DNA of 64,000 nucleotides. Origin: Cytophagaceae bacterium. GTDB lineage: Bacteria > Bacteroidota > Bacteroidia > Cytophagales > Cytophagaceae. The position numbers and the translations under genes were made by a program. Location: assembly GCA_029237685.1 (NCBI GenBank), contig JAQZBV010000001.1:1-64000 (forward strand), read 5' to 3'. Under the pieces are notes generated by a model. It saw nothing but the letters and a program-made list of their open reading frames with translations, did no database searches and was not told the origin of the DNA. Positions 21,429 to 47,708 of this stretch are shown here, in pieces (position 1 is the first letter of the stretch; every line of letters begins with the position of its first letter).

Positions 21429-22313
21429 TTATGCCTTAAACGCCCCCGCAAACTCCTTCGCAAAATCTTCCAGTTTGGTTTTAGAAAGCGTTGTTGGATG
21501 CTTGCGGTAGTCTTCAAACATTTTTCCTGAACGTATCGAAGTTCCCATCTCAATGTAATTCTTAGCGATCTCTTCCGGTAAGCCTGCACCTATTGCACCG
21601 GCCAAGGCTTCTTCATCGCTGAAATTGATCCAAGGTAAATCGGCTTTGCCTATGGCAGTTCCCAATACTTTCGCAATTTCTGTTGTGCTGCGTTCGTCGC
21701 TTACTACATAGCGAACGGTTTTGCCTGTGAAGGAAAGACTTGTTAACTCTTCGAAGACAGCAGTTGCAATGTCAGCTGGGTGTACCAATACAATCTTAGT
21801 GTCTTCGCCATAATTACCTCCAATGATTCCTGCGCCTTTGATCATGCCAATGTTTGCGTAAAGATTGGTATAGAAATTACCCGGACGCAAGTGTTTAATA
21901 TCCACACCTTCTAATTTGTTCAAGGCCACTTCCGAACGGTGTATACCACTTACCGGTCCCACGCCTTCTGCCAGGTGTGCACCAATACTGCTCAAGTGAA
22001 CCACTTTTTTAACACCTGCCGCTTGGATGGCATCGGCGTAATTTTGCCCCATTTTACCGATGTAGCCTTTCCAGTCGGATGGTTCCAGCGTTGGGGGAAT
22101 CATGGCATAAACTGCATCCGCACCTTTGAACGTATGGGTGAGGAAGGCAACATCTGAGATAGATCCTACCGCAGCTTTCGCACCTAAGGCTTCGATTTCT
22201 GCTTTTCTATTTTCCTTCGACGTAACAACGGTTACGTCATGTCCTGCAGCGACTAACTTTTGAGTCAAAGGTTTGCTGATATTTCCGAGTGATCCTGTAA
22301 TGATGTATTTCAT
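21429..22313 (-). CDS. NmrA-like NAD(P)-binding oxidoreductase
   Basis: This 294-residue protein has an N-terminal Rossmann fold, seen as YIITGSLGNISKPLTQKL (about 3-20), a variant of the TGxxGxxG dinucleotide motif. It has the atypical short-chain dehydrogenase layout of NmrA/QOR2-type proteins, with no YxxxK catalytic pair (VVHLSSIGAHL and IHRSEVALNKLEG occur instead). Members are NADPH sensors, quinone reductases or azoreductases. It is divergent from an HxlR-type regulator and their promoters overlap (22329-22379), so expression is probably controlled by that regulator in response to electrophile or quinone stress. Confidence 0.87.
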   Translation of the reverse strand: MKYIITGSLGNISKPLTQKLVAAGHDVTVVTSKENRKAEIEALGAKAAVGSISDVAFLTHTFKGADAVYAMIPPTLEPSDWKGYIGKMGQNYADAIQAAGVKKVVHLSSIGAHLAEGVGPVSGIHRSEVALNKLEGVDIKHLRPGNFYTNLYANIGMIKGAGIIGGNYGEDTKIVLVHPADIATAVFEELTSLSFTGKTVRYVVSDERSTTEIAKVLGTAIGKADLPWINFSDEEALAGAIGAGLPEEIAKNYIEMGTSIRSGKMFEDYRKHPTTLSKTKLEDFAKEFAGAFKA

Positions 22314-22328
22314 AATTTTAAAAAGATT

Positions 22329-22358
22329 TTGGTTAACTGATGAGCAAATGTATATTTG
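22329..22358 (+). promoter_or_regulatory. Promoter for the HxlR-type regulator
   Basis: TTG at 22329-22331, a 19-base spacer and TATATTTG at 22351-22358 match the Bacteroidota consensus TTG...TAnnTTTG exactly. The predicted start is near 22364, giving a leader of about 38 bases to the ATG at 22402. Confidence 0.7.
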
Positions 22359-22375
22359 TACTTACTTTTAGACAA
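22345..22375 (-). promoter_or_regulatory. Promoter for the NmrA-like oxidoreductase gene
   Basis: On the minus strand, TTG (22375-22373), a 20-base spacer and TACATTTG (22352-22345) match the same consensus exactly. The -7 element overlaps that of the divergent regulator promoter. Confidence 0.7.
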
Positions 22376-22379
22376 GTAC
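22358..22379. promoter_or_regulatory. Probable HxlR operator (GTACTT-N10-AAGTAC)
   Basis: A 6-bp perfect inverted repeat with a 10-base spacer begins at the last base of the plus -7 element. It covers the predicted regulator start site and the spacer of the oxidoreductase promoter. This position would let one bound dimer repress both genes. Binding is inferred. Confidence 0.6.
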
Positions 22380-22401
22380 TCACCCTAAAGTAGGTATAGA
22401 A

Positions 22402-22752
22402 ATGACCGCGATAAAACTTTCTTCTACGAATCAACTCAATAAAGAACAAGCACTTACCTCTTGTCCGGTAACGTTTACATTGAGCAGAATAGGTGGGCGA
22501 TGGAAGCCTTTGATCATTTTTCAGCTCATGAGCGGCACCAAGCGCTACGGTGAATTGAAAAAAGCGATTCCCAACATCAGTGAAAAAATGCTGATCCAAC
22601 ACCTAAAGGAATTGGAAGCCGATGGCTTGGTACATCGTAAAGCCATGCCGGTAGTTCCGCCCCATGTTGAATACAGTTTGTCTGCTCAAGGCCAGGAACT
22701 GACTCCTATTTTGGGAGCGATGGTCTGCTGGGCAGAAAAATACAATAGATAG
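22402..22752 (+). CDS. HxlR-family transcriptional regulator
   Basis: This 116-residue protein is a winged helix-turn-helix regulator of the HxlR/DUF24 family. It has the family start SCPVTFTLSRIGGRWKPLIIFQL, recognition helix region around YGELKKAIPNISEKMLIQHLKELEADGLV, and wing residues near HVEYSLSAQG. Cys21, in the conserved position used for thiol-based sensing in YodB/HypR-like regulators, is present, so it may respond to quinones, diamide or aldehydes. It is divergent from the NmrA-like oxidoreductase gene, a common pairing for this family. A palindromic operator candidate overlaps both promoters. Confidence 0.92.
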   Translation: MTAIKLSSTNQLNKEQALTSCPVTFTLSRIGGRWKPLIIFQLMSGTKRYGELKKAIPNISEKMLIQHLKELEADGLVHRKAMPVVPPHVEYSLSAQGQELTPILGAMVCWAEKYNR

Positions 22753-22791: not shown

Positions 22792-23115
22792 ATGTTCAAA
22801 GCACCTTTTTCATTCAATGGCCGCATAAAGCGCGGGGAGTACATTTTGTCTTTTGTAATTTATGTAGTAAGTGCTATTACGTTTTCTGCTTTAAGCGAAG
22901 CAATTCCTCTTATTGGCTTAGTCCTTTTTCCGGTGCTCTGGTTTCTGTGGGCTCAGGGAGCAAAACGCTGTCACGACATTGGAAGAAATGGATGGTATCA
23001 GATTATTCCCTTTTATTTCGTGGTTCTCATGTCTACACCAAGTGATATGGGTTTAAATAAATACGATGGCGCTTACAAAGAATCTATTCCGGATGTATTG
23101 GATACGCACGAATAA
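22792..23115 (+). CDS. DUF805 family membrane protein
   Basis: The 107-residue product matches DUF805: FSFNGRIKRGEYILSF at the start, two to three membrane segments, and the conserved AKRCHDIGRNGWYQIIPF block with the RxHDxGxxGW signature. The function of DUF805 is unknown. It lies 39 bases after the HxlR gene, and the C-terminal tail (about 80-107) is hydrophilic. Confidence 0.87.
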   Translation: MFKAPFSFNGRIKRGEYILSFVIYVVSAITFSALSEAIPLIGLVLFPVLWFLWAQGAKRCHDIGRNGWYQIIPFYFVVLMSTPSDMGLNKYDGAYKESIPDVLDTHE

Positions 23116-46595: not shown

Positions 46596-47708
46596 ATGTC
46601 CTTCGTTAAATTAAGATTCATTGACAAAAACAAGTCTCAGTTTTTTGCGACCGTAAGAAGCAGAGTCGATCAGTATTTCGAGGAAAAAGGAATTTCAAAA
46701 AAGGCGAACGGCCTGATGATTTTCAAATCAGTTTTCTACCTGGGCACTTTCTTTGGTTTATACGGGCTGATTTTATCGAATCAGTTTCAGCCCTGGACAA
46801 TGTTCTTTATGGCGCTCGGAATGGGAGCCTTTGCTGCCTTCATTGGATTCAATGTAGCACACGATGCGATCCATGGGGCATACAGTTCCAATGATAATGT
46901 GAACGAAGCCATATCAATCTTTTTCAATTTATTAGGTGCAAACGTATACGTTTGGAAAGTCACACATAATGTGGTGCATCACACGTATACCAATATTCCC
47001 GGTCATGACGAAGACATTGAAATCGCACCGGGTCTGATGCGGGTAACAGATCACGACCAATTAAGGCCACATTATAAGTACCAGCACTTCTATGGTTTCT
47101 TTTTATACTGCCTGGCGAGTTTATCCTGGGTATTCAGAAAGGACTATGTGAAATTCTTCAAGGAGCGCATCGGACAAACCGATAACTCTATGCCTCCTAA
47201 AGCAGAGATCTACAAATTGTTTTTCTTTAAAATCCTTTACTACATCATGTTCATCATCATTCCTTTGATTGTATTGGATGTTACCTGGTGGCAGTTTGTG
47301 ATCGGTTTTGTATGCATGCACTTTGTAGAAGGCGCTGTATTGGGTCTGGTATTTCAACTGGCTCATTTGGTAGAAGGAACAGAATTGATTGATGCGAACG
47401 AAGACGGCAACATTGAAGAAGCCTGGGCGATTCATCAAATGCAAACAACGGCCAATTTCGGTTCAAGAAGTGCTTTGACGACCTGGTTATGCGGAGGCTT
47501 GAACATGCAGGTGGAGCATCATTTGTTCCCTAAGATTTGTCACATACATTATCCTAAAATCTCACATATCGTTCGTGAAACGGCGTTGGAATTTGGAGTA
47601 CCTTATCATGATAACACCAGCTTTTTTACGGCGCTAAAATCACATTATAAGGTATTGAAACATTATGGAGCCGATGCTTTGGCTCAGCAAAAATTAGCTC
47701 AGGCTTAA
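46596..47708 (+). CDS. Membrane fatty-acid desaturase (front-end type)
   Basis: This 370-residue di-iron desaturase has three histidine boxes: HDAIH (89-93), HNVVHH (124-129) and QVEHH (305-309). The glutamine in the third box is typical of delta-6 front-end and linoleoyl-CoA desaturases. Four membrane segments lie around residues 42-85 and 205-245. There is no fused cytochrome b5 domain, so electrons must come from a separate donor. It inserts a double bond in acyl chains of membrane lipids; the position cannot be assigned. Family members are often cold-regulated. Confidence 0.92.
   Translation: MSFVKLRFIDKNKSQFFATVRSRVDQYFEEKGISKKANGLMIFKSVFYLGTFFGLYGLILSNQFQPWTMFFMALGMGAFAAFIGFNVAHDAIHGAYSSNDNVNEAISIFFNLLGANVYVWKVTHNVVHHTYTNIPGHDEDIEIAPGLMRVTDHDQLRPHYKYQHFYGFFLYCLASLSWVFRKDYVKFFKERIGQTDNSMPPKAEIYKLFFFKILYYIMFIIIPLIVLDVTWWQFVIGFVCMHFVEGAVLGLVFQLAHLVEGTELIDANEDGNIEEAWAIHQMQTTANFGSRSALTTWLCGGLNMQVEHHLFPKICHIHYPKISHIVRETALEFGVPYHDNTSFFTALKSHYKVLKHYGADALAQQKLAQA

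Follow-up and report, generated by a model that had tools for sequence, protein, structure and literature searches.

Interlocked divergent promoters and a conserved tandem operator in an hxlR/oxidoreductase gap of a Cytophagaceae bacterium: a probable redox switch

Introduction

Do the promoter-like and operator-like sequences crowded into the short gap between an oxidoreductase gene and a divergent hxlR gene form a genuine two-way switch, or is their resemblance to known elements accidental? The gap lies in a 64,000-nucleotide stretch of DNA from a Cytophagaceae bacterium (positions 1 to 64,000 of contig JAQZBV010000001.1; hereafter, the window), which belongs to a 4.02-Mb assembly. The sigma-A (sigma-ABfr) promoters of Bacteroidota feature a -33 TTG/TTTG and a -7 TAnnTTTG element (PMC7366714 and PMC9723704, in their accessible parts), and the excerpt of PMC9723704 places the TAnnTTTG box of F. 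psychrophilum at -12 to -5. An earlier note on this DNA had recognised overlapping divergent promoters of this type with an operator touching both. Here, we examined the elements of the gap, their chance level and their conservation. Sequence comparison makes it very probable that the gap does hold a two-way switch, and one of a broadly familiar type.

Results

Two divergent genes and two interlocked promoters

The plus-strand gene of the pair (Table 1) encodes a regulator with an HxlR/DUF24 domain (PF01638, 117.4 bits; curated cut-off, 20.8). B. subtilis YodB and S. aureus QsrR are sequence matches of this regulator in a PDB search, and the NCBIfam cut-offs for RrpB (90 of 175 bits) and RrpA (82.4 of 185 bits) are not reached. 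Cys21, the N-terminal cysteine expected of the redox-sensing subgroup, is present in 28/28 orthologue rows aligned from residue 1. B. subtilis YodB is a MarR/DUF24 family protein with a reactive N-terminal Cys and a response to quinones and diamide (PMC8063818, accessible part). It differs in having a second cysteine (Cys101), whereas a cysteine near residue 108 occurs here in just 3 of the 28 rows. The conserved Cys21 combined with the rarity of the other cysteine suggests one-Cys thiol sensing. Members of the HxlR family respond to quinones and diamide (excerpts of PMC8063818 and PMC6943732), and this family knowledge, together with Cys21, makes quinone/diamide sensing by the regulator plausible. 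hxlR is followed directly, in the same orientation, by a gene for a small DUF805 protein (22792-23115). The product of the minus-strand gene was identified by profile search as an NmrA-type, NAD(P)H-binding oxidoreductase (PF13460, 52.8 bits; PF05368, 41.4 bits; both above cut-offs).

Table 1. Features of the hxlR/oxidoreductase locus (window coordinates)
Feature	Position	Strand	Details
NmrA/NAD(P)H-binding oxidoreductase gene	21429..22313	-	294 aa; ORF, divergent target
Gap	22314-22401		88 bp; separates divergent oxidoreductase (-) and hxlR (+)
-33 TTG, hxlR promoter	22329..22331	+	N19 to -7
-7 TACATTTG, oxidoreductase promoter	22345..22352	-	predicted start ~22340
-7 TATATTTG, hxlR promoter	22351..22358	+	predicted start ~22363
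Operator site A	22358..22379	.	GTACTTAC-N6-ACAAGTAC, = GTACTT-N10-AAGTAC
-33 TTG, oxidoreductase promoter	22373..22375	-	N20 to -7; inside site A
Operator site B	22376..22397	.	GTACTCACCCTAAAGTAGGTAT; 22-bp dyad
HxlR/DUF24-family regulator gene (hxlR)	22402..22752	+	116 aa ORF

Exact TTG-N19/20-TAnnTTTG matches facing opposite directions are present, as previously claimed, with N19 on the plus strand and N20 on the minus strand. Both have the -33 TTG and -7 TAnnTTTG of Bacteroidota sigma-A promoters, and both are conserved (see below). The -7 elements had been said to overlap by eight bases, but the overlap comprises just two, the TA at 22351-22352, creating a 14-bp fused CAAAnnTAnnTTTG (22345-22358). 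It is this common TA that sets the locus apart from the sigma-A promoters described for the phylum. The start positions in Table 1 are predictions that follow from taking TAnnTTTG as -12 to -5.

Taken alone, the promoter matches are not significant, since the window contains three exact TTG-N19/20-TAnnTTTG matches, two of them at this locus, against 2.76 expected from 100 dinucleotide shuffles. TAnnTTTG by itself is not enriched in the window (54 seen, 63 expected), and CAAAnnTAnnTTTG occurs once against 0.23 expected from dinucleotide shuffles. A second back-to-back TAnnTTTG pair, both TACGTTTG, is found at 46939-46954, where the two elements abut without a common TA. In 19 genomes of the family, CAAAnnTAnnTTTG has 486 sites against 405 and 380.5 per strand for spacing-shifted controls, and its count exceeds both controls in just 11 of the 19. 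With the excess so weak and uneven, we rejected a general rule by which Bacteroidota promoters are paired via a common TA.

Conservation of the block in relatives

The chance-level frequency of promoter matches in the window and the weak CAAAnnTAnnTTTG excess over shifted controls would both suit the explanation that a single promoter is used and that the -7 palindrome arose by chance or merely accompanies the operator. Comparison with relatives makes this highly improbable. We counted 27 distinct hxlR/NmrA loci (distinct if the last 100 upstream bases differ), chosen without any motif: hxlR had to align from residue 1 and reach 53% identity, with a divergent NmrA match no more than 130 bp away. 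All were also recovered by protein searches. Left out were L024 and L090, both from one genome (gap 283; block present), and L064 (gap 229, 56%). In L024 (1205-1500), an extra stretch accompanies the block and lengthens the predicted hxlR leader to ~180 nt. Named relatives belong to Chitinophagaceae, Cytophagaceae and Mucilaginibacter (8 loci). At E <=1e-30, hxlR orthologues are present in 24/291 genomes of the order. As there are close relatives among the 27 loci, a thinned set of 10 was used as well.

Fused CAAAnnTAnnTTTG with both -7 elements is kept in all 27 loci. The CAAA and TTTG parts are retained throughout, while the first nn drifts among TG, AG, GG and GC and the second among TA, TT, TG and AC, a pattern that speaks against a mere by-product, as does the E. 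coli gap discussed below, which has the operator without CAAAnnTAnnTTTG. For the plus TTG, the spacing is N19 in 19 loci, N20 in three and N18 in one (L056); L050, L051, L058 and L009 have no TTG at N18-20. The N19/20 spacing thus accounts for 22/27 loci, the next commonest spacing being N12 (9/27). In the thinned set, 8/10 loci have the plus TTG at N19/20 compared with a mononucleotide-shuffle mean of 1.0, and none of 2000 shuffles reaches 8. The minus TTG is found at N20 in 25/27 loci (missing in L008 and L049); since it falls within site A, this -33 element is inseparable from the operator.

Conservation extends over the whole block 22345-22397. In the 26 anchored loci (L009, which does not have the full 53-base block, was excluded from block columns), 42/53 columns are at least 90% identical as opposed to 0/25 adjoining flank columns; for the thinned set, the corresponding values are 41/53 and 0/25. 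A 40-base core of the block was detected at <=3 mismatches in 14/296 genomes of a phylum sample, in 12 of these 14 (own included) as an exact copy, and the reversed control gave 0. The phylum pattern search listed 15 places with the core. Ten of them, own included, yielded loci for inspection, and in eight of these ten hxlR is accompanied by a divergent NmrA match of nearly full length. L172 has lost the plus -7, and its NmrA match extends over residues 1-120 only; around 1515 its site A is present and site B altered. This locus seems to be decaying. The HxlR of L176 is less closely related (52% over residues 21-103), and the plus -7 is lost here too. The locus gave no NmrA match at E 1e-5; a divergent 297-aa frame alongside resembles an NmrA-type protein by eye.

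Conservation thus strongly supports the overlapping divergent promoters with an operator touching both. It also justifies the view of the earlier note that the locus is a good test site, although the exact consensus match given there is not the reason.

A tandem operator

The operator proposed earlier, GTACTT-N10-AAGTAC, is present as an exact copy (site A), but it turned out to be half of a larger element, as a second 22-bp dyad (site B) had been missed. The two sites overlap by 4 bp (GTAC), and their dyads are 18 bp apart. Four nucleotides separate the end of site B from the hxlR ATG. Among the relatives, site B has the consensus GTACTTACCCyAAAGTATGTAT; its distance to the ATG is 1-8 bases in 26/27 loci, and in L009 the site reaches 2 bases into the ATG. 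Relative to the predicted starts, site A occupies -5 to +17 in the hxlR promoter and -18 to -39 in the oxidoreductase promoter; for site B, the corresponding positions are +14 to +35 and -36 to -57. The conserved tandem dyads lend support to the idea that the regulator binds an inverted repeat beside its own gene. Control of both genes by a single HxlR dimer, as had been suggested, is geometrically possible on site A. However, it is two 22-bp dyads in tandem that are conserved as a unit, which makes two dimers more likely than one.

Exact GTACTT-N10-AAGTAC has a mean of 0 in window shuffles and one copy in the assembly, where base composition alone would give ~0.4 by a rough estimate. The 13 one-mismatch copies in the assembly besides the exact one are at about chance level, again by estimate, and no second copy of the tandem core was found in the genome at <=3 mismatches. 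We therefore rejected a many-site regulon; the uniqueness of the tandem core in the genome fits a local autoregulator.

We also inspected the upstream regions of 98 other HxlR genes, a set that excludes the ortholog motif, includes mutual relatives and has start codons assigned by a simple rule. Another 26 'ortho' upstreams had been picked by motif, making their site counts circular, and were not used. TAC-N6-GTA is present in 31/98 upstreams compared with 5.3 in shuffled ones (z 12), the top value for spacings 3-21. Spacings 4, 8-11 and 13-15 are enriched less strongly, N10 among them (22/98 vs 5.3, z 7).

These counts bear on whether the dyads are read in the right register. The regulator might instead bind as a single dimer, or recognise TACT-N8-AGTA, which is found twice in the block (22363-22378 and 22377-22392), is close to the TACT-7-AGTA preferred by YodB (PMC8063818, accessible part) and could draw on the N10 enrichment of TAC/GTA pairs. 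We consider this rather improbable, given that TAC-N6-GTA is the more enriched spacing, that the 22-bp model predicts N10 too, and that site A of the E. coli gap, ACTTAC-N5-GTAAGT, is centred as in the 22-bp reading. TACT is separated from AGTA by N8 and N12 in the block, and the N7 of the YodB-type box is not among its spacings; the dyad here is instead a tandem GTACTTAC-N6-ACAAGTAC.

Pairs of dyads 18 bp apart occur in 11/98 upstreams (1.6 expected). In this dyad count, one of the two upstreams counted for E. coli is an unrelated frame of L129. Pairs 14 bp apart (10 vs 2.7) and 19 bp apart (8 vs 0.15) are enriched too, indicating that 18 is not a strict rule of the family and that the offset differs between subgroups. 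Two dyads 18 bp apart also lie upstream of four HxlR paralogues (L026, L028, L029 and L035) that have no divergent NmrA match, and the tandem may accordingly be a trait of a wider HxlR subgroup. In the own genome (C172), a differently worded dyad pair, also 18 bp apart, lies upstream of another hxlR (L002).

The E. coli qorB/ytfH gap has the operator without the fused -7 palindrome

A counterpart of this locus exists in E. coli K-12, where qorB/ytfH is listed among divergent pairs (PMC3946193, accessible part). There, the HxlR-like YtfH, 45% identical over 92 aa to the regulator studied here, diverges from an NAD(P)H:quinone oxidoreductase across a gap that is likewise 88 bp long. Orthology of the two enzymes is at most a possibility: in one pairwise comparison, our oxidoreductase has 25% identity with QorB (E 5e-06). 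Structures of QorB exist, and no QorB-named chain is among the five PDB matches of our oxidoreductase at E 0.001.

The E. coli gap contains ACTTACTTTTAGTAAGTACGTACAAAAAGGTAAGTAT, that is, site A with N5 and site B with N6. As in our locus, the dyads overlap in GTAC; their centres are 17.5 bp apart compared with 18 here, where site A has N6. Site B ends 3 bases before the ytfH ATG. Scored against the 12 positions of TACnTACn6GTAnGTA, E. coli site B has all 12 and site A 8, owing to its N5, while our own sites B and A have 11 and 10, respectively. CAAAnnTAnnTTTG is absent from the scanned E. coli gap, so the operator does not require CAAAnnTAnnTTTG, and operator and promoter are separable. By both gene arrangement and operator, our locus is qorB/ytfH-like. 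YtfH itself is treated as a function-unknown factor in the accessible part of PMC9308461.

Discussion

Our results suggest that the gap carries a redox switch in which a local, autoregulating, thiol-based HxlR repressor, bound to the tandem operator, shuts both interlocked promoters until electrophiles release it. We regard this as probable. Each -33 element lies beyond the -7 of the other promoter and the central TA belongs to both -7 elements; since the promoters interlock in this way, RNA polymerase would occupy one of them at a time. The repressor, the HxlR-family product of the gene at 22402, would bind the tandem operator, probably as two dimers. On site A, it would cover the plus start region as well as the spacer and -33 of the minus promoter and so block both promoters; one dimer there could suffice to shut the two. 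Site B might make binding cooperative and act as a roadblock across the hxlR leader. Once quinones, diamide or similar electrophiles had modified Cys21, the repressor would be released, and the NmrA-type oxidoreductase and the repressor itself would be induced.

Repression is not assured, because related B. subtilis proteins are activators: HypR is described as one, and HxlR is a positive regulator by the title of a reference cited there (PMC6943732, accessible part). The regulator, once redox-activated, might accordingly activate the oxidoreductase gene, or control it in both directions, while autorepressing hxlR. Such an activator could use site B, which falls at -36 to -57 relative to the predicted minus start, with site A in the N20 spacer; N20 is found in all 25 of the 27 loci that have the TTG and exceeds N19, the commonest plus spacing, by one base. 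We nevertheless hold an activator to be unlikely, considering that site A over the minus -33 and spacer is in a usual place for a repressor and that both -7 elements match the consensus exactly.

A similar pair is C. glutamicum QorR/qor2, in which a redox-sensing, autorepressed DUF24 regulator diverges from a quinone oxidoreductase. Our literature search by gene names found no paper on QorR/qor2. Among the matches listed, the HxlR/quinone-oxidoreductase literature, taken mostly from outside subscription journals, does not describe this tandem operator, and none of six operator terms was found in PMC7835342, which deals with HxlR sensors. This is weak evidence for the novelty of the tandem operator.

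We thus view the locus as very probably a real redox switch, well conserved and ordinary in its class, with a double operator like that of the E. coli qorB/ytfH gap. A bolder reading may be offered tentatively: the locus could represent a symmetrical bidirectional promoter, in which the common TA forces a choice of direction, while a tandem two-dimer operator, recognisable in Bacteroidota and E. coli alike, adjusts the two strengths jointly. If this were true, the operator would be an old cassette, a protein-DNA code that has outlived the change of sigma consensus, and lineage-specific promoters would have been built around it. For the HxlR subgroup to which YtfH belongs, the redox-switch reading provides a sequence-based operator model common to E. 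coli and Bacteroidota. It also points to a small natural site of <100 bp in which two Bacteroidota promoters would compete for one TA step and on which promoter spacing, direction choice and repression are all testable.
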